Shown here piece by piece: positions 2,910 to 59,891 of a stretch of DNA of 64,000 bases (position 1 is the stretch's first letter; each line of letters opens with the position of its first letter). The notes beneath the pieces are model-generated. The model was not told where the DNA came from, ran no database searches, and saw only the letters and a list, made by a program, of their open reading frames with translations. This DNA comes from Vibrio sp. CDRSL-10 TSBA (lineage in GTDB: Bacteria > Pseudomonadota > Gammaproteobacteria > Enterobacterales > Vibrionaceae). The DNA lies in assembly GCA_039696685.1 (NCBI GenBank), contig CP155566.1:930001-994000 (forward strand). Direction: 5' to 3'. The position numbers were made by a program, and so were the translations under genes.

Positions 2910-4125
2910 TTAGTCTTCAAGCAATTTTTGTAACAGAACACCATTTAGCATCGCGCGCTTGATCATGGCAAATGCGCTTTTGGTCGGCTGCTTATCAACC
3001 GCTGAGGCCACAATAGGCAAATCACGGTGGAAGGTCTTGAGCGACTGATTGTGCACATTGCGCAAAATAGCCGGGAAAATAATCTCCGGAGCCGCGGTAA
3101 TCTGACCGGCGATGACAATTTTTTGCGGGTTAAACAGATTGACGGTAATGGCAATCGCTTTACCCAACTGGTTACCGACCTGAACCAGCGCCTGTCTGGC
3201 CAGCTCATCGCCCTGGTTGGCGTGCTGACAAATGATTTCGACGTTCAGCGGCTCAATGCCGGCCAGGCTTGATTCATAACCCTGTGCCAGCAGGCTGGTG
3301 ACGCGTTTGATGATCGCCGGGTTGGTAGCAATGGTTTCCAGACAGCCGAAGTTGCCGCACTGGCATTGATCGCCGAGCGGATCTATCTGGATATGGCCGA
3401 TTTCGCCCACATTACGATTAGAGCCCAGAAATACCTGACCGTTGACTATGATGCCGGCACCGGTGCCGCGGTGCACACTGACCAGAATCGAGTCCTGACA
3501 ATCCTGGCTGGCTCCGAAATAGTGTTCAGCCAGTGCCATACCGCGCACATCGTTACCGACAAAGCTTTCGACATGAAAATGCTCGCGCAGAATATCGCCC
3601 AGATCCAGAGTATCAATATCGATGTGTGGCATATATTCCACCACACCGGTTTCCGGATTGACCAGGCCTGGTAACACCACGCCGATGGCAATTAACTGGT
3701 CAATCTGCGCGCTGTGCTGGGTAATGAAAGCTTTAATATGGCCGAGCAGCCCTTCGATTAATTGCGGCTGCTGGGCATAGAGAAATTCGTGTTCGGCGTT
3801 TGCCAGCTCTTTGCCGCCTAAATCGTACAGGCTGAGCTGGATATAATCGCGGCCAAGACGCACCGCGATGGAATGAAAGGGAGCCACTTCTGTGGTGAGA
3901 GAGATAGCGCGTCGCCCGCCGGTCGACGCTTGTTGCGCGACCTCTTTTATCAGGCCGCGTTTCGAGAAGCTGACGGGTGATCTTGGTGACACTGGCCGGA
4001 GCAAGCTGGCTGACATCGGCAACCTGAATGCGGGATATCGGACCCTGCTGGTCAATTAAACGATAAACCGCTGCACTGTTGAGCTGTTTAACCAGATCTA
4101 CGTTACCTATTTGTCCGCCATTCAT
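2910..4125 (-). CDS. nagC: NagC, N-acetylglucosamine-responsive ROK-family repressor (single-base frameshift in this sequence)
   Basis: Transcriptional repressor of GlcNAc/chitin genes; GlcNAc-6-phosphate releases it from DNA. Residues 1-55 ([16 protein letters not shown]...) form the winged-helix DNA-binding domain; the remainder is a ROK sugar-kinase-like domain with the zinc-site Cys cluster CQCGNFGC. The reading frame is broken after ...TRQLLE: minus-strand CTCGAAACGCGG at 3960-3962 must be CTCGAACGCGG to continue as RGLIKEVAQ. With that one base removed the protein is 404 residues, matching the E. coli size. The start ATG at 4125 overlaps the nagA stop (TAATG), so the two are translationally coupled. 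I read the shift as a sequencing artefact (see findings), not a pseudogene. Confidence 0.93.
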
Positions 4126-5264
4126 TACACATTTTGCTCGTATTGTCCGTTTACTACCGTCGCTTTTACCTGGAAGTCGCGGTCAAAGGCCGTCAGATTG
4201 GCAATCATGCCAGGCCGGATACGACCCAGTTTGTTGTCCACTCCAATAGCTTTGGCAGGATATAGGGTTGCCATACGCAGGGCTTCGTCTAAAGCGATAC
4301 CGACGTGCTCAACCGTATTTTGAATTGCTTTTATCATGGTCAGGGCTGAGCCGCCAAGTGTGCCGTTTTCGTCTACACACTTGCCGTCCCGGTAATATAC
4401 TTTCTTACCGACAAAAATAAAGTGATCCATCTCAGCGCCTGCAGGAGCTGTGGCATCGGTCACTAATACCAGCTTGTCGCCTTTGATTTTGTGGGCAATG
4501 CGGATGTTGGCGTAGTCGACATGGAAGCCGTCGACAATGATACCGGCATAGACATCCGGCGTATCATAAATCGCACCGACAGCGCCTGGTTCACGGCCGA
4601 CCATAGGCGTCATGGCATTAAACAGGTGAGTGGCAAAGCTGATCCCGGCTTCAAACCCTTGGCGTGCTTCAACATACGTTGCGTTGGTATGGCCAAGAGA
4701 AACCACGATACCGGCCTCAGCCAACTGGGTAATATGGGCAGGATTGTTTTTTTCCGGCGCCAGCGTCAGTTTAGTCACCACGTCGCGGTTATCACAGATA
4801 AAGCGGATCATTTCGTCATTCGATGAGCGGATAAAATCGACGCTGTGGATGCCTTTCTTAATCTGATTGAGATACGGACCTTCCAGATGCAGGCCCAGAG
4901 AGTGGTTCTGGTAACGCTGCTGGTAGTCGCGCTGCGCTGCCACAGCCTGACGCATATCATCATCGGATGAGGTAATCAGGGTCGGCAGAAAGCTGGTACA
5001 ACCGGACTTTAAATTCGCGCGGTGCATGGTGTGCAGGGTGTCGGCGCTGATGTCATCATTAAACATCACACCGCCACAACCATTGAGCTGCACGTCGATA
5101 AATCCGGGACTTAAGTTGGCGCCATGCAGGTCAATAGTGGCTAATTCAGCCGGTAAGTCGGCGACAGGTTGCAGAGAGTGGATCATGTCGCCGTCAACCA
5201 CGACTGCATGCTCTGTGAGCATTTCGCTACCCGTGTAGATTTTACAGTTAGTTAGCGCGTACAT
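4125..5264 (-). CDS. nagA: N-acetylglucosamine-6-phosphate deacetylase
   Basis: Converts GlcNAc-6-phosphate, imported by NagE, to glucosamine-6-phosphate and acetate in the cytoplasm. 379 residues with the amidohydrolase-fold signatures of the NagA family: [10 protein letters not shown] near residue 60, the metal-ligand HLEGPY motif near 125, SLGHTNA near 190, HLFNAM near 210 and the catalytic VTDATAPAG near 270. First gene of the leftward nagA-nagC operon, divergent from nagE across a 481-bp control region. ATG at 5264. Confidence 0.96.
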
Positions 5265-5363
5265 ATTAGCGAGTCCTTATCTTTATCGAGATCTGATCAA
5301 TTCATGCGGCAAGGCCAGTCAGTAAAGAAGAAAGTGTTAGGCAGAACTTTCTTTGCTGACTTC

Positions 5364-5379
5364 AATTAGGTCGCAAATT
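5364..5379. promoter_or_regulatory. Candidate NagC operator, nagA-proximal
   Basis: AATTAGGTCGCAAATT is an interrupted dyad with AATT ends and a central CG, resembling the AT-flanked NagC sites of enterobacteria. It lies about 100 bp upstream of nagA. Assigned by pattern only. Confidence 0.5.
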
Positions 5380-5610
5380 ATCTTTTTGATTTCCAGAGAC
5401 TCAGGCTCTGGTGGAAAATAAGTGATAAACCGTTTGTCAGTTCAATGACTTCCGAACGCGACCTGGCTCGGGTTATCATGGCGGCAACCGCCGTGTCTGT
5501 CACTATTTTAGAGTAACTCAACGCCTGAGTGTACTGTTACGAGCTTGTTTTTTTATATAATAAAATAAGTTTTATGATCCCGCTAGCAAATTCCTTGGTT
5601 TTTCCAAGTT

Positions 5611-17627: not shown

Positions 17628-18189
17628 ATGGCAAGTAAATTCCAAAGCCGTTTGGTCGGTACCATTATTCTTGTAGCGGTCGGGGTCATCGTATTACCTG
17701 ATGTGCTCGATGGCAAAAAGCTGCATTACAAGGAAGAGATGACCGCCATCCCCATTAAGCCAGAAACTGGACAGTGAAGTGGAAAAGTTCGAGGTGGTGG
17801 AACCGGTAGAAGAAGATGCGGTCTTGCCTGAAACGCCGGTGGTCGCGATTGCGACCGCTCCGGAGAGCAAAACAGACTCAGCCCCGGAGGCTGAGTCCTC
17901 GCAATCTTTGGTCACCGCAACCCGCAGTGTGGCGGAAAAAAATGAGTATCAGGACAGTGCCTGGTTGATTCAGTTGATGGCGCTCAAGAATGCAGATAAC
18001 GCGAAAAACATGGTCGCGGATCTGCAAAAGCGAGGCTATCAGGCTCATACCAAACAAGAAAATGGTTTTACCCGCGTGATCATTGGCCCGGATGTTTCGA
18101 AAAGTAAGCTGGAAAAACAGCTACTGGAATTAGAAGAAATTACCGGCGCAAAAGGTCAGTTGCTTAAATTTAAACCACTAAACCCATAA
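17628..18189 (+). CDS. dedD: DedD, SPOR-domain cell-division protein (single-base frameshift in this sequence)
   Basis: Inner-membrane septal-ring protein whose SPOR domain binds denuded septal glycan. The ATG at 17628 opens MASKFQSRLVGTIILVAVGVIVLP, one transmembrane segment, followed by an acidic linker and a C-terminal SPOR domain (WLIQLMALKNADNAKNMVADL..., ending LLKFKPLNP). The frame breaks at 17764-17766: GCCAGAAACTGG must read GCCAGAACTGG, giving ...IKPELDSEVEKFEV. Corrected length 186 residues. The shift belongs to the GAAC series described in findings. Confidence 0.9.
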
Positions 18190-18777: not shown

Positions 18778-20293
18778 ATGTGTGGTATTGTTGGAATCGT
18801 GGGTACAACGCCTGTAAACCAGTCAATTTATGACGCGTTAACGGTATTGCAGCATCGTGGCCAAGATGCCGCTGGTATTTGTACCATCGAAAGCAATCGT
18901 TTTCGTCTGCGTAAAGCGAACGGTTTAGTCAAGGATGTGTTTGAAGCTAAGCACATGCAGCGTCTTCAGGGTTCTGTGGGTATCGGCCACGTTCGTTACC
19001 CGACTGCTGGCAGCTCCAGCGCATCAGAAGCTCAGCCTTTCTACGTAAACTCACCATTTGGTATCACCCTCGCACACAACGGCAACCTGACTAACGCTAC
19101 GGCAGTTCGTCAGAAACTGTTCGAGAAAGACCGTCGTCATGTCAACACAACTTCTGATTCAGAAGTACTGCTGAACGTGCTGGCGCACGAAATCGACACC
19201 GTAAAAGGTAACGTGACTGCGGACGATGTATTCCGTGCCATTGCTAACGTGCACCGTACTATTCGCGGCGCATACGCGGTGACTGCAATGATCATCGGCC
19301 ACGGTATGATTGCATTCCGTGACCCGAACGGTATCCGTCCTCTGTGTCTGGGTAAACGTGAAGTGAACGGCCGTACTGAATACATGGTTGCGTCTGAGTC
19401 TGTGGCTCTGGATGCGGTTGGTTTCGACTTTATGCGCGATGTGGCGCCGGGCGAAGCGATTTACGCGACGTTTGAAGGTGAACTGTTCACTAAGCAGTGT
19501 GCGGATAACCCGGTTTCTGAACCCATGTATTTTCGAATTCGTTTACTTCGCCCGTCCTGATTCATTCATCGACAAAATTTCGGTGTACAGCGCACGCGTT
19601 GAAATGGGCAAAAAACTGGGTGAGCGTATCAAGGCTGACTTCAGCGACCTGGATATCGACGTCGTGATCCCAATCCCTGAAACTTCATGCGACATCGCAC
19701 TGGAGATTGCTCAGGCACTGGATAAGCCATACCGTCAGGGTTTCGTGAAGAACCGTTACGTAGGCCGTACCTTCATCATGCCAGGCCAGCAACAGCGTAA
19801 GAAATCGGTACGTCGTAAGCTGAACACCATCCGTTCTGAATTTAAAGATAAGAACGTACTGCTGGTGGATGACTCGATTGTTCGTGGTACGACTTCAGAG
19901 CAGATCATTGAAATGGCACGTGATTCAGGTGCGAAGAAAGTGTACATGGTGTCTGCGGCGCCGGAAATTCGTTTCCCGAACGTTTACGGTATCGATATGC
20001 CAAGTGCCAACGAACTGATTGCACACGGCCGTGATAACGATGCGATCTGTAAGCAAATTGGTGCTGACGCGCTTATCTTCCAGACACTGGATGATTTGGT
20101 TGATGCGGTACGTGTGGGTAACCAGGACATCGCGAAGTTTGAAACTTCAGTGTTTAACGGCGAATACGTGACCGGCGATATTGATCAGCAATACCTGGAC
20201 TTCCTTGAGTCGATGCGCAGCGACGATGCCAAGACCGAGCGTGAGATTCAGCAAGAGCTGGCTAACCTTGAGTTGTACAACGAAGGCGCTTAA
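18778..20293 (+). CDS. purF: Amidophosphoribosyltransferase (single-base frameshift in this sequence)
   Basis: Commits PRPP to purine synthesis by transferring ammonia from glutamine. N-terminal class II glutaminase domain with the catalytic Cys2 (MCGIVGIVG) and a C-terminal phosphoribosyltransferase domain with the PRPP loop [14 protein letters not shown]. The frame breaks at 19522-19524: TCTGAACCCATG should be TCTGAACCATG, restoring [19 protein letters not shown]. Corrected length 504 residues, normal for PurF. Here the extra base is a C at the A/C junction of GAAC, whereas the other thirteen cases add an A. The gene is followed by a terminator. Confidence 0.94.
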
Positions 20294-20632: not shown

Positions 20633-21959
20633 CTACAGCACCATCGCAGCCAGCCAGCCGAAAGCAATCAGTGGCAGGTTGTAGTGAATAAAGGTCGGAA
20701 CCACGGTTTCCCAGATGTGTTCGTGCTGACCATCCGCATTCAGGCCTGATGTCGGGCCTAACGTGGAGTCTGATGCCGGAGAAACCTGCATCACCCAGTG
20801 CGGCTGCGGTACCCACCAGGGCAATAGTTGCCATAGGCGAGAAGCCGAATGCGATACACAGCGGAACGTAGATAGTGGCAATAATCGGAATGGTTGAGAA
20901 CGACGAGCCGATACCCATGGTCACCAGCAGACCGACAACCAGCATCAGCAGTGCCGCCAGTGGTTTGTTGTCACCGATACTGGTCGACAGAGCTTGAACC
21001 AAATCTTCCACGCCGCCAGTTGCTTTCATTACGGCGGCAAAACCTGCCGCTGCAATCATGATAAAACCAATCATCGCCATCATGTGTACGCCTTGAGTGA
21101 AGACGTCGTGAGTCTCTTTCCAGGCAATCACGCCACCAAAGGTGAACACCATAAAGCCAGCCAGAGCACCGATGATCATTGAACCGGTGGCCAGTTGCAC
21201 GGCAAGAGCAACTATAATACCAACCCCTGCGACAGCAATGTGCATTTTATTGATTGCGGTGCTTTCCTGGCTGATGGTGGTCAGTTCGGTTTCCTGGTAC
21301 ACACGAGGCTTACGGTAAGAGAAAAATACCGCAACCAGCAGGCCGAATACCATGCCAAGGCCTGGCAACAGCATAGCCATAGGGACCTGGCTTGCCGTGA
21401 CATGCTCAAGGCCGTTGTCACGCAGGTTTTTCAGCAGGATGTTATTGAGGAAAATGCCACCAAAACCAACCGGCAGTACCATGTAAGGTGTGATCAGACC
21501 AAAGGTCAGCACACAGGCAATCAGGCGACGGTCGATACCCAGTTTGGCAAATACGCTCAGCAGAGGCGGAATAAGAATTGGAATGAAAGCGATATGCACC
21601 GGGATCAGGTTTTGCGATGACATTGCCATCAGCAGCAGCGCGAACACGATCGCGTACTTCATACCGGTCGACGCGGCCATGCTATGACGACCATGGATAC
21701 GTTTAATGACGCTTTGTGCGAGTAAATCGGTGATGCCCGATTTAGAAATAGCCACGGCAAAAGTGCCCAGCATTGCGTAGCTGAGTGCGATGGTCGCACC
21801 GCCACCTAGGCCGCTTTCAAACGCTGCCACCGTACTATTGAGATCCATGCCGGAAACCAGGCCACCAACGATGGCACTAAACGTCAGGGCAACCACGACG
21901 TTTACGCGCATCAGTGCCAGGATCAGCATGACACAGACAGAAATAACTACAGGATTCAT
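20633..21959 (-). CDS. Na+/H+ antiporter (NhaC/YuiF-like) family permease (single-base frameshift in this sequence)
   Basis: About 441 residues with about a dozen hydrophobic segments; inner-membrane transporter. Families of this type include Na+/H+ antiporters and, in Bacillus, an amino-acid permease, so the substrate is open. I start at ATG 21959 ([20 protein letters not shown]) after GAGAAG. The frame breaks at 20782-20784: plus-strand GGAGAAACCTG should be GGAGAACCTG, which restores [19 protein letters not shown] and an end at 20633 with the usual [19 protein letters not shown]. Without the repair the C-terminal 60 residues are scrambled. Confidence 0.8.
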
Positions 21960-26345: not shown

Positions 26346-26973
26346 TTACTCTCCGCAGTTTAAAGGTTGCGACTGAATCTGGTTACGATTCTGATTGACG
26401 AACTGCACGGTCTGTTTCACCGCTTTGACGACCGCACGTGGGGTAATGGTCGCGCCGGTGAACTGGTCAAACTGGCCGCCATCTTTACGCACATGCCAGT
26501 CAGCTTCATTATCGGGCGTGACGCTTTTACCGCTGAAGTTGAGAATCCAGTCGGTGATGCGCAGATCAATTTTGTCACCCAGCCCAGGCGTTTCCTGATG
26601 CGCCAGCACGCGGGTACCGGTAATGGTGCCGTCGTTTCTGGATGCCGACGATAATTTTAATCGCACCGTTGTAGCCGTCCGGTGCGATGGACTCAATTGC
26701 CATGGCGGTTGGCTGACCGTTAAGGCTGGCCAGGTACACCGGCATCGCCTGATCGGTACCGAGCAGAGGATCGCTGACCAGAGTACAGGCCTGAGACAGT
26801 TCATTGTCATGCAGGCGTTTTGGCACCACCTGATTAAGTACCGACAGCAGCTGCGCATTTTCCTGCGCTTTAATCTGATCCTGGGTCAGATAGCTGGTTA
26901 ATGCCACCACGCCGGTCGAGGCACAGGCAAAGGCTGCCAGAATCAGGCCATTTTTACGAATAGCAGATAACAT
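26346..26973 (-). CDS. rnfG: Electron transport complex subunit RnfG (single-base frameshift in this sequence)
   Basis: Periplasmic flavoprotein subunit with covalently bound FMN; the attachment threonine is in the S/T-G-A-T motif [12 protein letters not shown]. Starts at ATG 26973 ([19 protein letters not shown], one membrane anchor). The frame breaks at 26635-26637: minus-strand ATCCAGAAACGACGG should be ATCCAGAACGACGG, restoring [30 protein letters not shown]. Corrected length 208 residues, normal for RnfG. Confidence 0.93.
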
Positions 26974-26984
26974 AGTGCGCTTCC

Positions 26985-28031
26985 TTAATGTCCGTAGGTA
27001 CGTGGTTTGCTGTAGTAGTCGATCAGCGGCACGCACATGTTGGCCAGTAATACTGCGAATGCGACACCGTCAGGGAAACCGCCCCAACTGCGGATAATAA
27101 ATACCATCACGCCGATAAAGGCACCGTAAATCAGGCGTCCCTTGGTGGTGGTTGACGCCGTCACCGGGTCGGTGGCGATGAAAAACGCACCGAGCATGGT
27201 AGCACCGGATAACATATGCATCATAGGTGATGCCGTTGTGCCGGGTGCCAGCAACATCATCAATACGCTGGCAACCAGCAGGCCACCAAGGTAAGAAAAA
27301 GGAATATGCCAGTTGATGACTCTGAGCTTAAGCAGAACCAGGCCGCCGGCCAGATAAGCCAGGTTAACCCATTCCCAGCCGATCCCGGCCAGGCCGCTGA
27401 ACTGAGGTTTTCCCATGGCTTCTGCCATTGTGTGGCCTGCACGCAGTGAGGTTTTCAACGAGTCAAGCGGCGTTGCCATAGTGATTCCGTCAATGCCGGT
27501 ACGGATTTGTTGCAGTGACAGGCCGTCTATATTGAAGCCGGTGAAGATCAGAGAGACCGAGTTAACCAATGATACTGGTTCTGCCGTCAGCTCTCCCGGA
27601 GCCAGCCAGCTGGTCATCTGAACCGGAAACGAAATCAGCAGTACGACGTAAGCGACCATCGCCGGGTTAAACGGGTTCTGCCCCAGACCACCATACAGGT
27701 GTTTGCCGATCAGAATCGCGAAGATCAGGCCAATAACCACAATCCACCAGGGTGACAATGGCGGAATGGCAACGGCCAAAAGCCAGGCCGTCACAACCGC
27801 GCTGTAGTCACGCAGTGCAAAAGAGACCGGACGCTTGCGCAGCAGCATCACACCGGCTTCAAGCAGCAGGGCAACAGCGATGGCAAAAATCAGCTGAATC
27901 ACGGTGCCGAAACCAAAGAAATAACTTTGCGCCAACAGTCCAGGCAGAGCGCACAAGGCGACCCATTTCATCATATCGGCGGTGCTGCGTTTCACCCGCG
28001 CATGTGGGGAGCTGGCAATAAAAAAGCCCAC
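26985..28031 (-). CDS. rnfD: Electron transport complex subunit RnfD
   Basis: Membrane subunit with covalent FMN; the attachment Thr lies in SGATML near residue 270, or in a nearby hydrophilic loop. 348 residues and about ten membrane segments. The start is GTG at 28031, overlapping the rnfC stop by one base (TAGTG), so the genes are translationally coupled. Confidence 0.94.
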
Positions 28032-37286: not shown

Positions 37287-37485
37287 ATGATTACACGTTT
37301 CTGTTATGTATAAAGGATTCGCAACCTTTGGTCTGGTATGTCTGCTGGCAGCCTGTGGTGATGAAGGTCCGATGGAACAAGCGGGCGAACAGCTTGATGA
37401 AGCGGCAACCGATACCCAAAACGCGATAGAAGATAAATGTGAAGCAATTAAGGGTGAGCTGAAAGCTGAAGATACTGATTGCTAA
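37287..37485 (+). CDS. Small lipoprotein (single-base frameshift near the start in this sequence)
   Basis: Starts at ATG 37287 after a strong TAGGAG ribosome-binding site. The frame stops at once unless CGTTTCTG (37298-37300) is read as CGTTCTG, giving MITRSVMYKGFATFGLVCLLAACGDEGP and 65 residues in all. LLAAC is a lipobox, followed by a short acidic helix (QAGEQLDEAATDTQNAIEDKC). Without the repair the only start is ATG 37306, which has no ribosome-binding site. The rule derived from other genes (GAAC on one strand gains one A) predicted this repair. Similar small lipoproteins accompany stress genes; function unknown. Confidence 0.75.
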
Positions 37486-37801: not shown

Positions 37802-39416
37802 ATGTTCGTCGTTAAATACTATTTCCTGATTGTGCTGGCCTGCTTCTCCGCTGCATTCCTGATCCCTAACCTTGTCGTTAGTCTTGTTATGGGCTGGACG
37901 GGCCTTTCCGTTTTTCTGGTCGTTCTGGCTTATCTTTTTGACTTACCCTCGATTTTTATGAAATCCGGTGACGGGAAAATTGCCTGGTGGATCCGTTGGG
38001 CGTTTATTCCGTTTCTGGCGGCAGTCAGGCTGTATAATTACTGGTCGCGCCGCAATGACAAGGTCGCTGCAATCCATCAGATTGCCCCCCACCTGTATGT
38101 GTCACGCCGCCTGCTGCGTTCTGATCTCGACGTTCTGCATGCCAATGGGATCAACTGTATTGTCGATGTCACGGCAGAATTTGCCGGTCTGGAAAGCGCG
38201 ATGACAGATAAGCAGTTTGAATATCTCAGTATTCCGGTGCTTGATCACAAGGTGCCAAAGTATCGCAAGCTACGCCACGCGCTTAACTGGATCGATACGC
38301 AAATCAGCCAGTCGCGTTCTGTGGTGGTTCATTGTGCCCTAGGGCGCGGGCGATCTGTCTTTGTGGTGGCAGCTTATCTGCTCAGTCAGAATCCCGATAT
38401 GAGTGTCGAGCAGGTTTTGCAACAGATCAACTCGGTGCGTAGTAGCGCATGCCTTAACCGGCGTCAGGTCAGAGCGCTGCAATCTATGCATCGCAAAGGG
38501 CTGTTGCAGCTTGATGAACCTGCATGGCTGATCGCCAATCCGGTTTCCGGCGGCGGAAAATGGCAGACATTCGGCCAGCGTTTGATCCGCGAATTAACCC
38601 GCAGTTATCGTTTACAGCTTCTGTTTACCGAGCCGGATGTCAGTGCGACTGCGCTGGCCCGGCAGGCTTTGCAGCATAATCCCGATCTTATCATCGCCGC
38701 TGGTGGGGATGGCACAGTCGGTGAGGTCGCCGGTGAGGTTGATCATTCTGATACCCGCTTGGGGATAGTGCCGTTCGGAACCGCCAACGCTTTGTGTCAT
38801 GTGCTGTATGGTATCGGCAGTAAAACCGCGCCCATCGACAAAACCTGTGAGGCGATTTTGTCCGGCAATACCCGTCAGATAGACACCGCTTACTGTAATC
38901 AGCAACTGATGCTGTTGGTGATGGGAATCGGCTTTGAGCAGCAGATGATCGAATACGCTCAGCGTGAGGAGAAAAACCAGCTGGGCCAACTGGCGTATCT
39001 GACCGGTTTCTTTAATGCTGTGATGGCGGATAACCCGATTCAGCTGACTTGCCGCCTCGATGATGAAGAGCCTCAGTCATTGCTGGTGCGCAGCTTTGTG
39101 GTCGCCAATACCGCACCGTTTACCACTTTGCTGGCGCAAGGGCACGGAGAAACCTGAACCGGGGGATGGTCTGTTGCATATTACTTATCTTGATCAGGCT
39201 GATTCGGTGGCGGAGCGTTTGCTGGCACTATCGGATATCACTCTCGCTTCGGTCGGTATTCAGGATAAAAGCGAACTGTTCAGTTACGCCAGTGCGCAGC
39301 GGGTAGAAATCAGCGCCGATAAAACGATAGATTATGTCGTGGATGGTGAGCTGTATAGTGCAGATAAATTGACGATCGAGATCAAGCACCAGTCGTTACA
39401 GGTATGTGTGCCATAA
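37802..39416 (+). CDS. Dual-specificity phosphatase fused to a diacylglycerol-kinase-family domain (single-base frameshift in this sequence)
   Basis: 537 residues after repair. N-terminal hydrophobic segments (about 5-45 and 60-80) place it at the membrane. A tyrosine/dual-specificity phosphatase domain has the Cys-x5-Arg loop HCALGRGRS near residue 180. A YegS/DgkB-type lipid kinase domain begins about 240 (WLIANPVSGGGKW) with the nucleotide loop AAGGDGTVGEV near 300. The frame breaks at 39150-39152: GGAGAAACCTGAACC should be GGAGAACCTGAACC, joining ...LAQGHGE to PEPGDGLLHITYLDQ. Such fusions occur in other gammaproteobacteria; a role in membrane lipid turnover is plausible, substrates unknown. 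Confidence 0.85.
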
Positions 39417-39991: not shown

Positions 39992-40424
39992 TTAATCAAT
40001 AATCGCTATATTGGCTATTTTCTTCTGACAGGAAATGAGTTCTTCCTGAACGGTGAATAACACTTCTTGTCGATCTCCGGGTTGAGCATGGCGTAATACG
40101 TCGCTAACCTCATTCAATGTTTTCTCTTCAATCATCTGCAGCTGTTTTAAATACATCTTTTCTTTGTCAAAGCTGACATCTTTTACCGTATCTGTGTACA
40201 GTTCACGCGCCTTGATCGCATAGGAGGGGATGTCATCCTCCTCTACATCCGATTCGGGTTTCCCGGTGCGCTCTCAGTTGCAACGCCGCGTATTCCTTGA
40301 TGCGGATGATCTCATCCAGCTCTCTCACCAATCCATGGTTATCGATATTGTCGATCGCTTTTGCGTAAATATTATTGCCGCTTTCAATCAGGTTTATAAT
40401 AAAATCAAGATCTTGATTCTTCAT
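39992..40424 (-). CDS. PA2169/DUF2383-like four-helix protein (single-base frameshift in this sequence)
   Basis: Starts ATG 40424 (MKNQDLDFIINLIESGNNIYAKAI). As given the frame ends after 63 residues; removing one base at 40259-40261 (minus-strand CGGGAAACCC to CGGGAACCC) continues it as REPESDVEEDDIPSYAIKARELYTDTVKDVSFDKEKMYLKQL... to a stop at 39992, 143 residues. The size and helical pattern resemble ferritin-like stress proteins of the PA2169 type, although the match is by general character. A -24/-12 promoter lies about 80 bp upstream. I found this extension by applying the GAAC rule. Confidence 0.65.
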
Positions 40425-41911: not shown

Positions 41912-41945
41912 CGCCAGACCGCTGAAAAATAACAGGGAGTCGACG

Positions 41946-43041
41946 ATGAACCATAATTATTATGCTGCGCTGATCCGAAGCATGGTGGCGCTTAGCCTGT
42001 TGATCGGCCTCTATTTTACTCAATCTCTGATGCTACCAATTTTTATCGCCGGGTTCGTGTCACTGCTCTGTGCTCCGATAGTCACAAAGTTAAGCCGAAT
42101 GGGGATCCCGCGCCTTATTAATGTGGTGGTGCTGCTGATGACCCTGTTGGCGGCACTGTCTCTTAGTGCAGGCTTTCTGGCTGAACCCGCCCAGCAGTGG
42201 TGGTCCAAACTGCCATCGGTGATGAAAGAGATGTCCCAGCAGTTCAATCACTCTTCATCTGCCAAGGCCGGTGGCGATGACTCTTTTATGGAAGTGATTG
42301 AAAATGCCAATGTGGGAGAAATCAAAGCCAATACAGCCTTGTCGGTGGCTAAAGAGGTGGTCAAGGCGACCCCGACCATAGTGACCCAGCTGTTTATCGC
42401 GCTGTTCATGGCGTTCTTTATGCTCAGCTATGGACGCACTTTATTGCGTCAGTTTTTACGTCAGCTCCCCAGTTTTGCAGACAAAAGGGTTGCGATAGAA
42501 GTAGTACGCGAGATCCAGGCCAGCTTATTCCGCTATCTGAGTACGATCACTGCCGTTAATATTGGCCTCGGCGTCGCGGTCGGTACTGTACTGGCGATGC
42601 TGGGGATGGAAGATGCGTTTTTGTGGGGCGCGTTTCGCCGCGCTGATGAACTTTGCACCGTATCTCGGGCCAATGATTTCAGTCGCCTGTTTTGGTTTGG
42701 TCGGTTTTCTGCAGTTTGATTCGTTGCAATACGCATTGATCATCATCGCCGCGTACCTGGCTCTCAACATCATTGAAAGCCAGTTTGTGACCCCGACACT
42801 GCTCGGCGATAAATTTAATCTAAATCCTTTGGTAATTTTTGTCTGGCTGGTGTTATGGGGCTGGATGTGGGGCGCAATGGGTGTGTTGATTGCCGTCCCC
42901 CTGCTGGTCTGCGTTGATATTTTTCTGGCCAGAACCCGGTTGTTCGGCACCTGGTATCAGGTGCTGCACAATGAGTCGTCGGAGACAACTGGTGTGAAGG
43001 GCGCATCAAAAAGATTAAGTAATAAAGCACTAGTGCCCTGA
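41946..43041 (+). CDS. AI-2E family transporter (single-base frameshift in this sequence)
   Basis: 364 residues after repair, with about eight membrane segments (PerM/YdiK/TqsA family). Some members export autoinducer-2 or act as Na+/H+ antiporters; the substrate here is unknown. The frame breaks at 42633-42635: GGGGCGCGTTTCGCC should be GGGGCGCGTTCGCC, restoring LWGAFAALMNFAPYLGPMIS, the conserved core of the family. Follows the yqjDEK-like genes by 34 bp with GGGAGTCG upstream. Confidence 0.87.
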
Positions 43042-43073
43042 GAGGATGTGATTTTATCAGGGCCAGAAACGAG

Positions 43074-43760: not shown

Positions 43761-45791
43761 ATGAGCAAAGCATTTGAATTGGTGTCTGAATATCAACCTT
43801 CCGGTGATCAGCCAGAAGCGATTCGACAGTTATTAGAGGGGATCGATGCCGGATTGGCACACCAGACCCTGCTTGGTGTAACCGGTTCGGGGAAAACTTT
43901 TACCCTGGCTAATGTGATTGCTCAGGCTCAGCGTCCGGCCATCCTGTTGGCGCCCAATAAAACCCTGGCAGCTCAACTGTATGGCGAAATGAAGAGTTTC
44001 TTTCCCAACAATGCGGTCGAGTATTTTGTTTCTTACTACGATTACTATCAGCCAGAAGCTTATGTCCCGACCACCGATACTTTTATTGAAAAAGATGCGG
44101 CAGTCAACGCGCACATTGAGCAGATGCGTCTCTCTGCGACCAAGGCTCTGCTCGAGCGTAAAGACGCGATTATCGTTGCTTCTGTGTCTGCGATTTATGG
44201 TCTGGGCGATCCCGATTCCTACCTGAAAATGATGCTGCATTTGCGCCGTGGTGATGTGATTAACCAGCGCGATATGCTGCGCCGCCTGGCGGAGCTGCAA
44301 TACTCACGTAATGATGTGGCATTTGAACGCGGCCAGTTTCGGGTGCGAGGCGAAGTCATTGATATTTTCCCGGCTGAATCCGAGCAGGAAGCGGTGCGGG
44401 TCGAGATGTTTGATGACGAAGTCGAATGCATTAGTCTGTTTGACCCTTTGACCGGGGTTATCAAACAGCGGGATTTGCCAAGATTTACTGTTTACCCGAA
44501 AACTCACTACGTCACGCCGCGCGAGCGGATTCTTGAAGCCATTGAGCAGATCAAGCAAGAGCTGGTGGTGCGCCGTCAGTATCTGCTTGATAACAATAAG
44601 CTGCTTGAAGAACAACGTATTTCGCAGCGTACCCAGTTTGACATCGAAATGATGAATGAACTCGGCTTCTGTTCCGGGATTGAAAACTATTCACGCTATC
44701 TGAGCGGCCGTTCGGAAGGCGAGCCGCCTCCGACCCTGTTTGACTATCTGCCGCATGACGGTTTACTGGTCATTGATGAAAGTCACGTTACCGTGCCGCA
44801 GATCGGCGCGATGTATAAAGGTGACCGTTCGCGTAAGGAAACCCTGGTGGAATACGGTTTTCGGTTGCCTTCGGCATTGGATAACCGTCCGCTCAAATTT
44901 GAAGAGTTTGAATCGATCGCGCCGCAGACGATTTTTGTGTCCGCGACGCCCGGCAAATATGAGATGGAAAAATCAGACGGTGAAGTGGTCGATCAGGTTG
45001 TGCGCCCGACCGGGCTGCTTGATCCTCAGCTGGAAGTCCGTCCGGTTGCAACTCAGGTCGATGACCTGTTATCCGAGATTCGTATTCGTGCCGCCCAGGA
45101 TGAGCGGGTGCTTGTCACCACACTGACTAAGCGTATGGCCGAGGATTTGACCGAATATCTGCACGAGCATGAGGTCAAAGTGCGTTATCTGCACTCAGAT
45201 ATTGATACGGTAGAGCGGGTGGAAATTATTCGTGATTTGCGCCTGGGTGAGTTTGACGTGCTGGTCGGTATCAACCTGCTGCGCGAGGGACTGGATATGC
45301 CGGAAGTTTCGCTGGTGGCGATTCTGGATGCAGATAAAGAAGGCTTCCTGCGCTCCGAGCGTTCCTTGATCCAGACGATCGGTCGCGCCGCACGTAACCT
45401 GAAAGGCAAAGCGATTCTCTACGCTGACAGCATTACCAACTCGATGAAAAAGGCGATGGATGAAACCAATCGCCGACGCGAGAAACAGCAGGCGCACAAT
45501 GAGAAAATGGGCATCAAGCCCCAGGCGCTCAAGCGTAATGTTAAAGACATTATGGAGTTAGGTGATATCACCAAGTCGCGTAAGCAGAAAACCAGTAAAG
45601 TGGTGCCTCTGGGCAAGGTTGCAGAAACGTCAGCCAGCTACGATACTATGTCACCACAGCAGTTGGAAAAAGAGATCAGCAGGCTGGAAGGGCAGATGTA
45701 CAAGCACGCTCAGGATCTGGAGTTTGAACTGGCCGCAGAGAAGCGGGATCAGATTGAGCAGCTGCGTCAGCAGTTTATCGTCAACAGCTAA
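43761..45791 (+). CDS. uvrB: Excinuclease ABC subunit B
   Basis: Central helicase-like factor of nucleotide excision repair; loads with UvrA at lesions and recruits UvrC. 676 residues: Walker [11 protein letters not shown] (about 39-48), the damage-inserting beta-hairpin segment [12 protein letters not shown] (about 92-103), Walker [10 protein letters not shown] (about 335), motif [11 protein letters not shown] (about 540) and the C-terminal UVR domain [25 protein letters not shown]. The stop codon runs into the qrr1 terminator. Confidence 0.97.
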
Positions 45792-45885
45792 AAAAAAAGC
45801 CAATAGTAATCGTCTATTGGCTGTTATATCGTGAATATCGTATTCACTAACAACGTCAGTTGGCTAGGTGACCCTTGCGGGTCAT
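45791..45885 (-). ncRNA. qrr1: Qrr1 quorum regulatory small RNA
   Basis: On the minus strand the RNA begins near ATGACCCGCAAGGGTCA (first hairpin), continues through the highly conserved target-pairing segment CTAGCCAACTGACGTTGTTA, a second hairpin GTGAATACGATATTCAC and ends with the terminator AGCCAATAG ... CTATTGGCT plus eight Ts. About 95 nt. Hfq-dependent; represses luxR/hapR-type mRNA and activates aphA at low cell density. It is divergent from luxO, the standard qrr1 position in vibrios. Confidence 0.95.
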
Positions 45886-48083: not shown

Positions 48084-48990
48084 TTAACTCAGCGGCATTA
48101 GTGCCAGTTGTTCTTCGATGGCCTGGCGCAATTTGAGACGGTCATGGCGCCAGTCACGGTTGGGTGAGGCCAGATCTCGGGTCACGCAGTTCCAGGCATC
48201 GGTCAAAGGTGTCTGGTGCGGTTTACCACCTAAAACAACATCAATACGCCGCCCCTGGCAGGCTCGTTCACACCAGTTCAGTTTTTGCTCCAGTGACATG
48301 CGTCCCGCCGGGCCATATTCCGGCGACAGGTTTCTCGACAAAAATCAGTTTGGCCGACGTGTTGCTTTCAATGGCCTGACCGATTTCCGGCAGCAGCAAT
48401 GGCGGCATGATACTGGTCAGGAAGCTGCCCGGACCGAGGATAATGGCATCAGCTTGTTCTATCGCGCTGACCCCTTCCCGGGTTGCAGGTACTGCTGGCG
48501 TCAGATCGAGGCGCTTCAGATCCTGCTCCATCTCATCAACGCTGGTCTCACCGGTAACCCACAGGCCATCAACGGACAGCGCTTTGAGATCAGAGGGGTG
48601 CTCTGACATGGGGACGATATTGACATCAACCTTCAACATGGTCCGAATCAGGTTGATCGCATCCAAGGGTCTGACCGAGAGGTTATCAAGTGCGGTCAGC
48701 ATCAGGTTGCCCAGATTGTGGCCGTCGAGTTCCCCTGAGCCTTTAAAGCGATATTCGAACATCATTGAGCTGATAGAAGGCTCGGTAATCAACTGATTGA
48801 TGCAGTTGCGGGTGTCGCCCCAGGCAATACCGCCCTGGCAATCCCGGATTCGTCCGGTCGAGCCGCCGTTGTCGGTTGTAGTCACAATACCGGTTGCGTT
48901 TGAGCCAAATATTTTCAACGCAGCCAACATGCGCCCTAAGCCGTGCCCGCCACCGATAGCGACCACTTTTTTATTTTTGTAAAGAGTCAT
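48084..48990 (-). CDS. yvcK: YvcK/YbhK-family gluconeogenesis-related protein (single-base frameshift in this sequence)
   Basis: CofD-like fold protein, 301 residues after repair; in Bacillus needed for growth on gluconeogenic carbon and cell shape, binding UDP-sugars. N-terminus [20 protein letters not shown] is the nucleotide loop; [10 protein letters not shown] and [13 protein letters not shown] follow. The frame breaks at 48331-48333: minus-strand GTCGAGAAACCTG should be GTCGAGAACCTG, restoring [26 protein letters not shown]. It is divergent from moaA, an association shared with E. coli ybhK-moaA. Confidence 0.92.
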
Positions 48991-49171: not shown

Positions 49172-49280
49172 TGTGCCGCTGGTAAGTTTTTTTCCCACCG
49201 AGGGTGGCATCAATTATACTTTTTAAGTATTTTACCAATATGCTGCTATTGAGCGCTTTTTAGTTGTTTCTCTTTAGTTG

Positions 49281-49402
49281 CCATAACTCCGAGCTTAGTT
49301 CAGCTAAGTCTGCTGTATATCAAAAATATGTCAGATACGCTGCCTAAGCCAGTGACTTTGTGTCACAAGGGCATAGTTGGAAATGACGTTGCCTCCCGTG
49401 TT
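49281..49402 (+). promoter_or_regulatory. Molybdenum cofactor (Moco) riboswitch of the moa operon
   Basis: The leader contains the hallmark blocks of the Moco RNA family in order: CTCCGAG near 49288, TGCCTAAGCC (49341-49350), a GTGAC-TTTGT-GTCAC hairpin, CAAGGGC (49366-49372), GGAAATGACGTTGCCTCCCG (49379-49398). It ends 15 bases before the moaA GTG, so ligand binding would act on translation initiation, as in E. coli moaA. Recognised from memory of the family. Confidence 0.85.
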
Positions 49403-49416
49403 TGGAAAGGTGTATC

Positions 49417-50406
49417 GTGGCGCAACAATTCGAAGATAGATTTCAACGCAAGTTCTATTACTTGCGCTTGTCCGTTACAGATGTCTGTAACTTTAAATGT
49501 ACGTACTGTTTACCTGACGGCTATCATCCGTCGGGCAATAAAAACTCCTCTTTTTTGACTCTGCCTGAGATCGAACGCGTGGTGAACGCGTTTGCTGAAT
49601 GCGGTACTTCCAAAGTCCGTATTACCGGCGGAGAGCCCAGTCTGCGTAAAGATTTTACCGACATTATTCATACTGTCGCATCGACGTCCGGTATCGAGAA
49701 AGTCGCGACCACAACCAACGGCTATCGTATGGCCAAAAATGTGGCGCAATGGAAAGAAGCCGGGCTGACCCATATTAATGTCAGTGTTGATAGCCTGGAT
49801 CCGCGTATGTTTCACCAGATCACCGGCGAAAACCGCTTTCATCAGGTGATGCAAGGGATCGACCGCGCGTTTGAAGTGGGGTATGAGCAGGTCAAAGTCA
49901 ATGTGGTGCTGATGAAAGATCTTAACACCCAGGACATGCCTAAGTTTCTGGAGTGGATTCGTCATCGTCCGATCCAACTGCGTTTTATTGAATTGATGCA
50001 GACCGGTGAGATGGATGATTTGTTTAACAAACATCATGTATCCGGTACGGCAATTCGTAATCAGTTGATTGCTGATGGCTGGATCCTGAAGGCGCGCGCC
50101 AACAATGATGGCCCGGCTCAGGTGTTTGTGCATGCGGATTATCAGGGCGAGATTGGTTTAATCATGCCTTATGAGAAGAACTTCTGTACCAGTTGTAACC
50201 GTCTGCGCATTTCAGCGCTGGGCAAACTGCACCTATGTCTGTTTGGTGAACACGGCGTTGAGCTGCGTGATCTTTTACAACAGGACGAGCAGAAGAATGA
50301 GCTGATTGAACGTATTCAGTCCCAGTTGCAAACCAAATCGGTCAGCCATTTCCTGCATGACGGAAATCCGGGTATGACGCCTCATCTCGCCTCTATCGGC
50401 GGCTAA
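49417..50406 (+). CDS. moaA: GTP 3',8-cyclase (molybdopterin biosynthesis)
   Basis: Radical-SAM enzyme for the first step from GTP to cyclic pyranopterin. 329 residues from GTG 49417 ([19 protein letters not shown]), preferred to a TTG 15 bases upstream. N-terminal SAM cluster CNFKCTYC (about 25-32), GGEPSLR, and C-terminal second cluster [18 protein letters not shown]. The C-terminal GG needed for activity is present (SIGG). Confidence 0.95.
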
Positions 50407-51089: not shown

Positions 51090-51569
51090 ATGAACCAGTT
51101 TACTCATATCAATGCTTCCGGCGAGGCCAACATGGTCGACGTGTCAGGTAAAACTGACACCGTACGCGAAGCTCGTGCTGAAGCCTTTGTACGCATGGCA
51201 CCTAAAACCCTGCAACTGATTGTTTCGGGCCAGCATCATAAAGGTGACGTGTTTGCCACGGCGCGTATTGCCGGTATTCAGGCCGCGAAGAAAACCTGGG
51301 ATCTGATCCCGCTGTGCCACCCTCTGCTGCTGTCGAAAGTGGAAGTGCAACTGGAGGCGATAGAGGCGGACAACCTGGTCCGGATTGAATCTGTGTGCAA
51401 ACTGGCGGGTAAAACCGGTGTCGAAATGGAAGCGCTGACGGCCGCGTCTGTGGCTGCGCTGACCATTTACGATATGTGCAAAGCGGTACAGAAAGATATT
51501 GTGATTGAACAGGTCCGTTTGCTGGAAAAAACCGGTGGTAAATCCGGGCATTTTAAGGTGGATGCATGA
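51090..51569 (+). CDS. moaC: Cyclic pyranopterin monophosphate synthase
   Basis: Completes conversion of the MoaA product to cPMP. 159 residues from ATG 51090 after GGGGAGGCGG; conserved [15 protein letters not shown] and [27 protein letters not shown]. The frame is open upstream but overlaps moaB. The stop overlaps moaD by 4 bases (ATGA). Confidence 0.95.
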
Positions 51570-51812
51570 TTAAAGTTCTGTTTTTTGCTCAGACGCGTGA
51601 GCTGGTGGAGTGTGACAGTCTGACTGTTGAGGCGTCATTCGAAACTGTTGAAGCGTTACGTGCCCATCTTGCGGCCCAGCCAGGTAAATGGGAGCTGGCG
51701 TTACAGCCAGGCAAGCTTTTGGCGGCGGTCAATCAATCGATTGTGGCGCTTGATTCTGCTCTCCAAGACGGAGATGAAGTGGCGTTTCTTCCCGCCGGTG
51801 ACAGGTGGCTGA
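51566..51812 (+). CDS. moaD: Molybdopterin synthase sulfur carrier subunit (single-base frameshift in this sequence)
   Basis: Small ubiquitin-fold protein whose C-terminal Gly-Gly is thiocarboxylated to donate sulfur. As written the frame runs past the end; reading GTGGCGTTTCTTCC (51785-51787) as GTGGCGTTCTTCC gives ...[12 protein letters not shown] and a stop at 51810-51812, 81 residues and the obligatory GG terminus. Without the repair the protein would lack its active end. Confidence 0.93.
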
Positions 51813-52551: not shown

Positions 52552-52969
52552 ATGGATTCGCTAAAAGTAAGAGACTATATGACTAAAAAAGCGGTGACAT
52601 TTAGACCTGAAATGTCATTAACCGCAGCGTTGGATAGGGTAATCCATTCGAACCATCTGGGTGGGCCTGTGATTGATGACAGGGAAACGGGTGATTGGCT
52701 TTTTGTCCGAACAGGACTTACTGGAAAAGCTGATTAAAGTCAGCTATCACTGTCAGGATACGCATATTGTCAGCGACTGCATGCACGAAGAGGTCCTCTC
52801 TGTCTCGCCGGAAATGTCGATCATCGAACTGGCGCAGATGATGAAAGTAGGTAAACCGAAAGTTTATCCGGTGGTCGACGATAATAAGCTGGTCGGTATC
52901 ATAACCCGTCGGGATGTACTGCTGGCCATTGGCAAAAATCTCGCGACCTGCTTTAAGCATCCGGTATAA
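52552..52969 (+). CDS. Tandem CBS-domain protein (single-base frameshift in this sequence)
   Basis: 138 residues after repair, two CBS domains (DYMTKKAVTFRPEMSLTAAL... and DCMHEEVLSVSPEMSIIELAQ...), ending with the typical LVGIITRRDVLLAI. CBS pairs bind adenine nucleotides and act as energy sensors; a free-standing one has no defined partner. The frame breaks at 52685-52687: ACAGGGAAACGGGTG should be ACAGGGAACGGGTG, restoring VIDDRERVIGFLSEQDLLEKL. AAGGAGACAG precedes ATG 52552. Confidence 0.88.
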
Positions 52970-55839: not shown

Positions 55840-55919
55840 TGTTACTGGTGAGTCGGCTAAAGTAGCTCTGTACCCAAATATACCTATGCGCTGAATAAGC
55901 CACAATCTAGGAGAAACTT

Positions 55920-56682
55920 ATGTCTCAAGCTGTGTTCCACCTTGGTGTTACTCAAGAAGATCTCAATGGTGCAACTCTGGCGATCATCCCTGGTGATCCT
56001 GCCCGTGTACAAAAAATTGCAGACCTGATGGAAAACCCTGTGTTTCTCGCCAGCCTACGTGAATACACCCTGTATCGTGCAGAGCTTGATGGCCAGCCGG
56101 TTGTGGTTTGTTCTACTGGTATTGGTGGTCCTTCGACCTCGATTGCGGTTGAAGAGTTAGCGCAGCTTGGTGTGCGTTTCTTTCCTGCGTGTCGGCACCA
56201 CTGGTGCGATTCAACCCCATGTGAATGTCGGCGATATGATCGTGACCACAGGTTCGGTGCGTCTGGATGGTGCCAGCCTGCATTTCGCGCCGATGGAATT
56301 TCCGGCTGTCCCGGACTTTGCTGTCGCGACGGCAATGAAACAGGCGGCGGAAGAGAGTGGCGCTACAGTGCACATGGGTGTCACTGCATCAAGTGATACC
56401 TTCTATCCAGGTCAGGAGCGTTACGATACCTTTACCGGTCGCGTTGTGCGCCGTTTCCAGGGCTCGATGAAAGAGTGGCAGGAGATGGGTGTGCTTAACT
56501 TTGAGATGGAATCAGCGACACTGCTGACCATGTGTGCCAGTTCAGGCCTCAAAGCCGGTTGTGTGGCCGGGGTTATTATCAACCGTACCCAACAAGAGAT
56601 CCCTGATCATGCGACGCTGAAAGAGACAGAAGCTCGTTCGATCAAAGTTGTGGTCGAAGCGGCACGTAAGATGCTGAGCTGA
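55920..56682 (+). CDS. udp: Uridine phosphorylase (single-base frameshift in this sequence)
   Basis: Cleaves uridine to uracil and ribose-1-phosphate. 253 residues after repair, with [42 protein letters not shown] and [13 protein letters not shown] signatures of the family. The frame breaks at 56177-56179: TGTGCGTTTCTTTCC should be TGTGCGTTCTTTCC, restoring [22 protein letters not shown]. Removing a T from the neighbouring TTT run would also restore frame, but it gives Phe where relatives have Thr, so the GTTC repair fits better. Confidence 0.93.
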
Positions 56683-57613: not shown

Positions 57614-57762
57614 CTCCTTGTTAATGTTTCTGTACCTAAACCAGTGCAGGGTTGATGCCAGTTTTTTATTTCTTTTAAATCAATGAATTAACAAGTTTTT
57701 AAACTTTATCTTGCACTAAATGTGTGCACGATGAACTAAAAGTGTGAGCGAGTTCAATAAAA

Positions 57763-57796
57763 AAACTCCCACCTCAAAAGAGAGTGGGAGTTCTTC
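57763..57796 (-). terminator. Terminator of metG
   Basis: On the minus strand GAACTCCCACTCTC pairs with the GGTGGGAGTTTTTTT side; T-run present; 28 bp after the metG stop. Confidence 0.8.
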
Positions 57797-57823
57797 AATT
57801 AAATGTTCTTACAGAACAGCTGG

Positions 57824-59891
57824 TTACATTACGCGCATACCAGGTTGAGCGCCTTCATGCGGCTCAAGGATCCACAATTCGCTGCCACCAGGGCCGGCGG
57901 CCAGAATCATGCCCTCTGACATACCGAATTTCATCTTACGTGGTTTCAGGTTGGCAACGACAACCGTGTATTTACCCACCAGATCTTCCGGGTTGTAAGC
58001 GGCTTTAATACCAGAGAATACCTGACGCATTTCACCGCCGATATCGAGCTGGAATTTCAGCAGTTTGTCCGCTTTTGGCACTGACTCGCACGAGACGATT
58101 TTAGCAATACGCAGATCCACTTTGGCGAAATCATCAAATTCGATTTCGTCAGCAATCGGGTCTTTGCTCAGCTCGGTTTGCTCAGCTTTTGGTGCATTGG
58201 CTTCTGCGGCGGCTTTCTCGGCTGCAGCTTCTTCTTTCGAAGTTTCAATCATGGCTTCGATGTGCTTTGGATCAATACGGTTAAACAGCGCTTTAAATGC
58301 ACTGATATCGTGGTTGGTCAGCGGCTGTGCAACCCCATCCCAGGTCAGTTTCCTGGTTCAGGAAGGCTTCAGAACGAGCGGCCAGGCCAGGCATTACCGG
58401 CTTAAGGTAAGTCAGCAGTACGCGGAACAGGTTGATACCGACAGTACAGATGTCCTGCAGTGCCTGATCCTGGCCTTCTTGCTTGGCGACAACCCAAGGC
58501 GCTTTTTCATCAACATACTGGTTGGCTTTATCAGCCAGAGCAGTGATTTCACGAATCGCACGACCAAATTCACGCGCTTCGTACAGCTCTGCGATGCGAT
58601 CAGCAGCAGCAACGAATTCGTTGTACAGCTCAGGCTCTGCAAATTCAGCCGACAGTTTGCCGTCAAAACGCTTGGTGATGAAACCTGCGTTACGTGATGC
58701 CAGGTTAACGATCTTGTTAACGACATCAGCGTTGACACGCTGAGTAAAGTCTTCCAGATTCAGATCCAGGTCATCAATACGGCTGTTGAGCTTGGCAGCG
58801 TAGTAGTAACGCAGACACTCTGGATCCAGATGCTTGAGGTAAGTGCTGGCTTTAACGAACGTGCCTTTTGATTTCGACATTTTCGCGCCGTTCACGGTCA
58901 CGTAGCCGTGCACAAATACGTTGTTTGGCTTACGGTAGCCGCTGCCGTCCAGCATGGCTGGCCAGAACAGGCTGTGGAAGTAAACAATGTCTTTACCGAT
59001 GAAGTGGTACAGCTCAGTCTGGCTGTCTTTATTCCAGTATTCATCGAAATCCAGGTCATCACGTTTGTTGCACAGGTTCTTAAATGAGCCCATGTAGCCA
59101 ATCGGTGCATCCAGCCAGACGTAGAAGAACTTGTTCTTCTCGCCAGGAATTTCGAAGCCAAAGTAAGGTGCATCGCGGGAGATGTCCCACTGTTGCAGAC
59201 CTGACTCAAACCACTCCTGCATCTTGTTGGCGGTTTCTGACTGCAGTGAGCCAGAACGGGTCCACTCTTTCAGCATGCTCTCGAACTGAGGCAGGTCGAA
59301 GAAAAAGTGCTCAGAATCTTTCATGACCGGCGTTGCGCCAGAGACGGCCGAACGCGGGTTGATCAGCTCTGTCGGGCTGTAAGTCTCACCACAGGCGTCA
59401 CAGTTGTCGCCGTACTGGTCTTCCGATTTACATTTCGGACAGGTGCCCTTAACGAAACGGTCCGGCAGGAACATCTCTTTTTCAGGGTCAAACAATTGAG
59501 AAATGGTACGGCTGGAAATAAAACCGTTCTTTTTCAGCTCAAGATAGATATGAGACGCCAGTTCACGGTTCTCGTCACTGTGTGTGCTGTGGTAGTTATC
59601 AAAGCTGATGTCAAAACCAGCGAAATCTTTCTGATGCTCTTCGCTGACCGCGGCAATCATCTCTTCCGGAGTCATACCCATCTGTTGCGCTTTAAGCATG
59701 ATCGGTGTGCCGTGAGCATCGTCAGCACAGATGAAGTTTACAATGTTGCCACGCAGGCGTTGGTAACGAACCCAAATATCCGCTTGGATATGCTCAAGCA
59801 TATGACCTAAGTGGATCGAACCGTTAGCGTACGGAAGGGCACAAGTTACCAGCATTTTCCTGGCAGGAAAGTTTCTTGGTTCAGTTGCCAT
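57824..59891 (-). CDS. metG: Methionyl-tRNA synthetase (single-base frameshift in this sequence)
   Basis: Essential enzyme; charges initiator and elongator tRNA-Met. 688 residues after repair. HIGH-type motif [14 protein letters not shown] (about 17-30), zinc-knuckle cysteines [17 protein letters not shown] (about 146-162), KMSKS ([13 protein letters not shown] about 335), anticodon-binding helices and a C-terminal dimerising tRNA-binding domain ([15 protein letters not shown]...). The frame breaks at 58349-58351: minus-strand CCAGGAAACTGACC should be CCAGGAACTGACC, restoring [17 protein letters not shown] real break would remove the dimerisation domain. Confidence 0.95.

Follow-up and report, generated by a model that had tools for sequence, protein, structure and literature searches.

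The assembly of Vibrio sp. CDRSL-10 TSBA carries single-base insertions at the four-letter motif GAAC and its complement GTTC, and these insertions split genes over two reading frames on both chromosomes. The genome (4.90 Mb) comprises two contigs, C1 and C2, corresponding to the two chromosomes. Our analysis concerns a window of 64,000 nucleotides (C2:930001-994000, contig CP155566.1), in which an earlier note had listed fourteen frame breaks at this motif, together with larger samples of the genome. The genome also encodes a predicted DNA phosphorothioation system, dndBCDE with dptFGH. We consider it probable, at roughly 0.87, that the extra bases are errors in the consensus sequence and that phosphorothioation of the DNA at GAAC/GTTC gave rise to them. 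The motif, the direction of the change, its extent on both chromosomes, the single-frame genes of relatives, the full dnd/dpt gene set and a rule for the flanking bases are observed. From the assembly sequence and the gene content, it is most likely that this strain bears the sulfur mark, that it was sequenced on a platform sensitive to it and that sulfur is the cause of the extra base.

The nearest relatives among 226 other genomes of the genus, identified with a 3211-base query, are G085 (84% identity) and G088 (V. furnissii; 83%). FolC of the source genome, which is a Vibrio, shares 88% identity with that of V. furnissii CIP 102972, the top match among 80 named loci. For the larger samples, genes were aligned one by one at the nucleotide level, using open reading frames (ORFs) of at least 100 aa that were at least 60% covered, with at least 65% DNA identity and mismatches mainly in the third codon position. 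Events more than 30 bases from an alignment end were counted as interior, and as at the motif if it fell inside the 14-base core around the gap. These alignments could reveal only frame-changing errors in genes with relatives.

Across all samples, 84 of 87 interior +1 breaks are at GAAAC/GTTTC, in 391,631 aligned coding bases. The first sample, C2:820001-1114000, includes the window; its 203,871 coding bases hold 39 distinct sites (39/39 interior +1 events at the motif against G085 and 20/20 against G088). The second, C2:620001-820000, has 32 of 35 at the motif in 151,216 coding bases, and two of its three off-motif events have the motif within about 10 bases. In the third, from C1, all 13 are at the motif (36,544 coding bases). 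The earlier note had named a wider scan lacking enrichment at GAAC/GTTC as grounds for dropping its claim; the enrichment is present in samples of both chromosomes. No convincing single-base deletion was found in the three samples. The two interior -1 events, both in the first sample and against G085 only, look like misalignments.

That chance cannot account for this concentration, as had been claimed for the window, holds more widely: the 84 of 87 breaks fall on a motif that makes up 1561 of the 12,285 exact AA/TT runs in the first sample. Also borne out is the sparing of homopolymers. Coding DNA of the first sample has 126 homopolymer runs of at least six bases, and every interior +1 break in that sample lies at the motif. 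We reject plain homopolymer error as an explanation. Errors restricted to one motif, with other contexts accurate (84/87), are the pattern by which modification-mediated consensus errors are recognized. The same confinement, with long homopolymers spared, suggests otherwise accurate data from native single molecules.

Controls between the two relatives gave few events. G088 ORFs placed on G085 showed one interior break in 156,965 bases, and G085 ORFs placed on G088 showed four in 158,520 bases, one of them at GAAAC. Events at the ends of alignments were left uncounted: in the first sample 18 with G085 and 9 with G088, then 9 in the second sample and 3 in the last. The majority resemble alignment noise and a few sit at the motif. 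One of these, at window position 15171, was rejected as a break because by eye both sequences run in frame with no gap. Other interior gaps were judged to be misalignments: in the first sample nine against G085, including the two -1 events, and four against G088, with four in the second and two in the third. Among them, a -1/+2 pair in the first sample and a +5/-4 pair in the second adjoin a GAAAC. In G088, two +1 events occur in one 310-aa ORF (C12, about 1338356-1338431), one of them at GAAAC; this genome is dndC-negative.

Because GAAC/GTTC is a published target of Dnd systems, the genome was searched for dndC, which was then found. The genes dndB, dndC, dndD and dndE lie together at C2:1206238-1211314 (TIGR03233, TIGR03183, TIGR03185 in two pieces, and TIGR03184). 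The first dndD piece scores barely over the cut-off (246.7 vs 245.85) and the second slightly under it (234.7). Facing these genes is the restriction partner, dptF, dptG and dptH, with TIGR03238, TIGR03236 and TIGR03237 over cut-off; the second of two dptH pieces matches PADLOC DndH. By these profile matches, the genome is predicted to carry a complete phosphorothioation system. In the first relatives search dndC was over cut-off in two of 41 genomes, the source genome and G006; neither G085 nor G088 has a dndC match. Also present, between the dpt and dnd operons, is a gene for a DGQHR-domain protein (TIGR03187; weak DpdB match; L004:13035-14186).

The system itself is broken by the pattern. 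Compared with intact E. coli copies, the break in dndD aligns to a GAAAC, and the two pieces of dptH meet at L004 11436-11441, with a GTTTC at 11437. A broken dndD is sensible only as a reading error, since a real break in the marking enzyme would mean that the mark could hardly exist.

The extra bases could arise as follows. DndBCDE would swap one oxygen for sulfur in the backbone of GAAC/GTTC, between the G and the following A (or T), with both strands but only some of the sites affected. If native DNA was read as single molecules, most likely by nanopore, heavily modified sites would give a changed signal that is called as one extra base in the AA (or TT) run. Where the majority of reads agree, the error would enter the consensus and the gene would appear frameshifted. 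The earlier note offered no cause; its view that the errors are technical fits the dnd/dpt system present in the genome.

Published work, available to us as portions of the papers cited by PMC number, provides close precedents. GAAC/GTTC is the Dnd target in Salmonella Cerro 87, where native nanopore reads are disturbed at the motif, in their signal and in their base errors, in wild-type cells and barely so when dndC is deleted (PMC9069010). The calls there were 3.9% of GTTC and 4.4% of GAAC sites in the wild type, against none of GTTC and 0.6% of GAAC in the deletion. This ELIGOS-based detection of phosphorothioates resembles our case in the disturbance of native reads at GAAC/GTTC, there dependent on dndC. 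It differs in that reads were compared with amplified DNA, whereas here the error is in a finished consensus and is nearly always one added base. Motif-bound consensus errors associated with an untrained modification system have been described for nanopore assemblies of Listeria, as mismatches at GCAGC or GCTGG rather than as single-base insertions at GAAC (PMC10687267). Sequencing errors mediated by modification and the visibility of phosphorothioates to nanopores are thus already known. What appears to be new in form is a finished assembly in which nearly all frame breaks are insertions at GAAC that follow a flank rule on both strands. Among the matches listed in a search of titles and abstract starts of open-licence PMC papers, none described deposited genomes with extra consensus bases at phosphorothioate sites.

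The affected sites are a minority with distinctive neighbors. In the aligned coding DNA of the samples there are 3026 GAAC/GTTC sites, of which 84 (2.8%) are broken and 2942 intact. A T on the 5' side of the G, on either strand, occurs at 9 of the 84 broken sites and at 1663 of the 2942 intact sites (p 5e-18). The base before GAAC at broken sites is A in 45, G in 21, C in 15 and T in 3, with T at 37% of intact sites; the base before GTTC on the other strand is A in 28, C in 27, G in 23 and T in 6, with T at 30% of intact sites. Expressed as VGAACB, in which T precedes G on neither strand, the rule separates 75 broken among 1354 sites from 9 among the 1672 elsewhere.

In Salmonella Cerro 87 the modified sites, 12% of the total, are reported to be preceded by A or C (-1) and followed by T or G (+1), with C at -2 and G at +2 (PMC9521924). 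The narrower combination of A/C at -1 and T/G at +1 is matched here by 38 of 84 broken and 662 of 2942 intact sites, and G at +2 is found at 43 of 84 broken sites and 38% of intact ones. The two genomes agree in part: the agreement covers A at -1, the avoidance of T at -1 and of A at +1, and G at +2, whereas C is favored here at neither -1 nor -2. VGAACB as such does not appear in the available portions of PMC9521924 or of PMC6459556, a study of E. coli B7A. The small share of broken sites fits a partial mark such as the 12% in Salmonella. The 84 sites would presumably be the most heavily marked, because a consensus error needs most reads to agree. We tentatively suggest, at less than even odds, that the insertions form a readable map of the strain's own phosphorothioate sites and display a VGAACB target rule, with T rare 5' of the marked G on both strands. 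The rule may stem from the choice of the enzyme or from that of the basecaller, and the two are not separable here. If it reflects target choice by DndCDE rather than the basecaller, backbone epigenomes could be recovered from old assemblies with no new sequencing.

A basecaller or polisher that inserts an additional base at GAAC whether or not the DNA is modified would give a similar motif-bound error. Systematic long-read errors are common (PMC10687267), and dnd-positive genomes free of the artefact would suit such a fault equally well. It would have to spare all but 84 of 3026 sites, to follow a flank rule that is symmetric on both strands, and to coincide with a modification system of the kind known for GAAC; we regard it as improbable. 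Another DNA modification, for example by a methyltransferase acting on GAAC, could also cause misreading; nanopore errors tied to methylation have been described at fixed motifs (PMC10687267, PMC12392509). In Listeria these are mismatches and not insertions (PMC10687267). The genome has no match to PF01555 or PF00145, within a set of searched families that excluded others such as Dam. PF02384 and PF07669 match one 310-aa protein only marginally (21.6 bits against a cut-off of 20.4, and 25.9 against 25.3), and PF07669 matches a 239-aa protein still more weakly; these two proteins resemble PrmB and TrmN6 rather than DNA methyltransferases. A methyltransferase also normally fills most of its sites, which counts against this explanation, and we consider it quite improbable.

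Explanations in which the extra bases exist in the cell fare worse. Sulfur-marked sites are chemically unusual, so a mutation hotspot there is conceivable, and a decaying genome could likewise accumulate real insertions. Against this, the genes broken include leuS, metG, dnaX and the dnd genes themselves, the relatives have single frames, and there are no convincing single-base deletions; real mutation is thus highly improbable. Ten broken genes picked by hand and named through their G085 orthologs are those for leuS, tig, clpX, lon, serine hydroxymethyltransferase, dnaX, purL, metG, a TRAP permease and purF. In other bacteria several of these genes are essential. Programmed ribosomal frameshifting at GAAAC would account for one short motif common to nearly every break, yet homologues encode the same proteins in one frame and the affected genes are unrelated, so that its probability is negligible. 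The earlier view that the breaks are a systematic error bound to a motif, and not real, is upheld by the pattern on both chromosomes, by the breakage of genes of essential function and by the single frames, in relatives, of the nine window genes tested. We conclude that the breaks in the window are very probably technical and not biological.

Several results weigh against phosphorothioation as the cause. C before GAAC, preferred in Salmonella, shows no enrichment here (15 of 84 broken sites, 24% of intact ones), and in E. coli B7A no flank preference was seen among 360 high-frequency sites (PMC6459556). GAAC/GTTC is the target in only 7 of 19 characterised phosphorothioate strains (PMC9521924), so the presence of dnd does not by itself predict this motif. 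The available portions of PMC9069010 report no consensus insertions. The dndC search covered 394 genomes of the order (22 over cut-off) and 398 of the phylum (13 over cut-off), with the source genome counted in both, and among those searched it yielded no other affected genome. No over-cut-off genome with few contigs is similarly low in completeness; the low ones of the phylum set are drafts of at least 80 contigs. Two dnd-positive complete Vibrio genomes lack motif breaks: G137 has none in 19,017 coding bases, where about 4 were expected at the rate of the source genome, and G006 has none in 35,672, where about 8 were expected (G006 has a single interior -1 event, off the motif, in an alignment of 67% identity). 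Of the over-cut-off dnd loci fetched from other genomes, all 33 have dndC in a single frame, and dndB likewise occupies a single frame in all 27 where it was located; 14 of these loci, two from E. coli, were compared more closely. The dnd/dpt genes are also unflagged, within the stretches viewed, in all ten dnd-positive E. coli records inspected (of 204; hand-picked and mostly recent accessions). The platforms of the other dnd-positive genomes are unspecified, so these negatives are not decisive, yet only one genome ties dnd to the insertions, and the larger counts (33/33, 27/27) lend slight weight against a general link. On plasmids, eight records have a dndC match. One of the 33 loci, L258 in a draft genome (G649), has a dndC-like gene with an internal stop codon.

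Phosphorothioation of GAAC/GTTC nevertheless remains our favored cause. Compared with the GpsAAC/GpsTTC systems of Salmonella Cerro 87 and E. coli B7A, the present genome shares dndBCDE with dptFGH, the same four-letter motif, few affected sites and a preference for A and against T before the motif. It differs in that the mark is deduced from assembly errors, in accepting G before GAAC with no enrichment of C, a departure from the Salmonella rule, and in having a flank preference, unlike the available account of E. coli B7A. The insertions would point roughly to sulfur-marked sites at no experimental cost, and the genes themselves are probably intact. With 84 insertions per 391,631 coding bases (0.21 per kb), extrapolation gives about a thousand false insertions in a genome of this size. 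Such insertions mislead pseudogene counts, typing and annotation. The completeness of 95.9% and contamination of 4.55% of this genome are compatible with insertion damage of this kind.

All fourteen sites in the window carry the letters given in the earlier note. The window was compared by tblastn with ORFs of at least 80 aa from G085 (287 in 300 kb) and G088 (92 in 100 kb), of which 41 and 40 ORF-strand pairs, respectively, have a match in it. Exactly nine genes are split over two frames, the identical nine with each relative and no others, and all are in the earlier list. The fourteen features are as follows.

2913..4125, minus strand: nagC-like gene (name from the earlier note), in two frames with the motif pentamer near 3960; tblastn against G085 and G088, nucleotide alignment.
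17628..18186, plus strand: dedD-like gene, in two frames with the motif pentamer near 17764; tblastn, nucleotide alignment.
18778..20293, plus strand: purF (ortholog assigned by TIGR01134), in two frames, the break aligning to GTTTC at 19513-19517; tblastn, alignment.
20636..21959, minus strand: antiporter-family gene, in two frames with the motif pentamer near 20782; tblastn, alignment.
26352..27036, minus strand: rnfG-like gene, in two frames with the motif pentamer near 26635; tblastn, alignment.
37287..37485, plus strand: small lipoprotein gene, in which the ATG preceded by AGGAG and the lipoprotein frame disagree across a GTTTC; indirect.
37802..39416, plus strand: dual-specificity phosphatase / diacylglycerol kinase-like gene, in two frames near 39150; PF00782, PF00781.
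39992..40424, minus strand: small "four-helix" gene, with ORF-list pieces in different frames; putative break.
41946..43041, plus strand: AI-2E family transporter gene, in two frames near 42633; PF01594 positions 3-226 in one piece and 226-325 in the other.
48102..48990, minus strand: yvcK-like gene, in two frames with the motif pentamer near 48331; tblastn, alignment.
51566..51810 (extent approximate), plus strand: moaD-like gene, with +1 against an 81-aa G085 ORF near the alignment end; weaker.
52552..52966, plus strand: CBS-domain gene, in two frames with the motif pentamer near 52685; tblastn and alignment with a G085 ORF (G088: opposite-strand ORF).
55911..56676, plus strand: udp-like gene, in two frames with the motif pentamer near 56177; tblastn, alignment.
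57827..59891, minus strand: metG (methionine--tRNA ligase; ortholog by NF001100), in two frames with the motif pentamer near 58349; tblastn, alignment.

Nine of the fourteen breaks (nagC, dedD, purF, antiporter, rnfG, yvcK, CBS, udp and metG) are thus supported by the relatives. The G088 match for the CBS gene is an ORF on the opposite strand, so that G085 alone supports this break in the sense of the gene. Those of the phosphatase-kinase and AI-2E genes are confirmed by a homologue and by Pfam, respectively; a 543-aa phosphatase-kinase homologue in G041 (locus L222) matches the window in two frames, with the split at 39138-39151. The moaD break lies at an alignment edge and the lipoprotein break is indirect: homologues occur in loci L223-L226, and in the two whose start region was compared (L223 and L226) the ATG is placed alike, here in the other frame. 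The four-helix gene has no Pfam match and no homologue among the fetched loci. Single frames are also the rule more widely in the genus. Of 80 other Vibrio loci, 78 have dedD in a single full-length frame (it is split in one and partial in another) and 76 have purF in a single full-length frame (it is split in the remaining four); the antiporter-family gene is whole in all eight where it was found.

Two details of the earlier description require correction. It had set purF apart as a GAACCC exception; in the alignment the extra base falls on the GTTTC that directly precedes GAACCC, and purF fits the pattern. It had also placed each insertion at the A/C junction, and the sequence cannot place an extra base within a run: an extra A could equally lie between the G and the first A, where the sulfur linkage has been published, which leaves the exact position indeterminable. 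The base before GAAC was said to vary. It does so among A (9), G (3) and C (2), and with the purF site corrected T precedes the G at none of the fourteen sites.

Four of the fourteen sites lie between 32.2 and 43.1 kb of the window, where no blastn piece longer than 400 bases was found in G085 or G088. This stretch of about 11 kb (32200-43100), which holds the phosphatase-kinase and AI-2E genes, was likely gained here or lost in the relatives. It also contains an ORF at 34946-36334 that resembles a second sigma-54 regulator. Beyond it, on the minus strand at 45790-45884, a Qrr small RNA (RF00378) adjoins an ORF that is presumably luxO-like. A molybdenum cofactor riboswitch (Rfam RF01055, 90 bits) was identified on the plus strand at 49275-49428, directly before the moa genes named in the earlier note.

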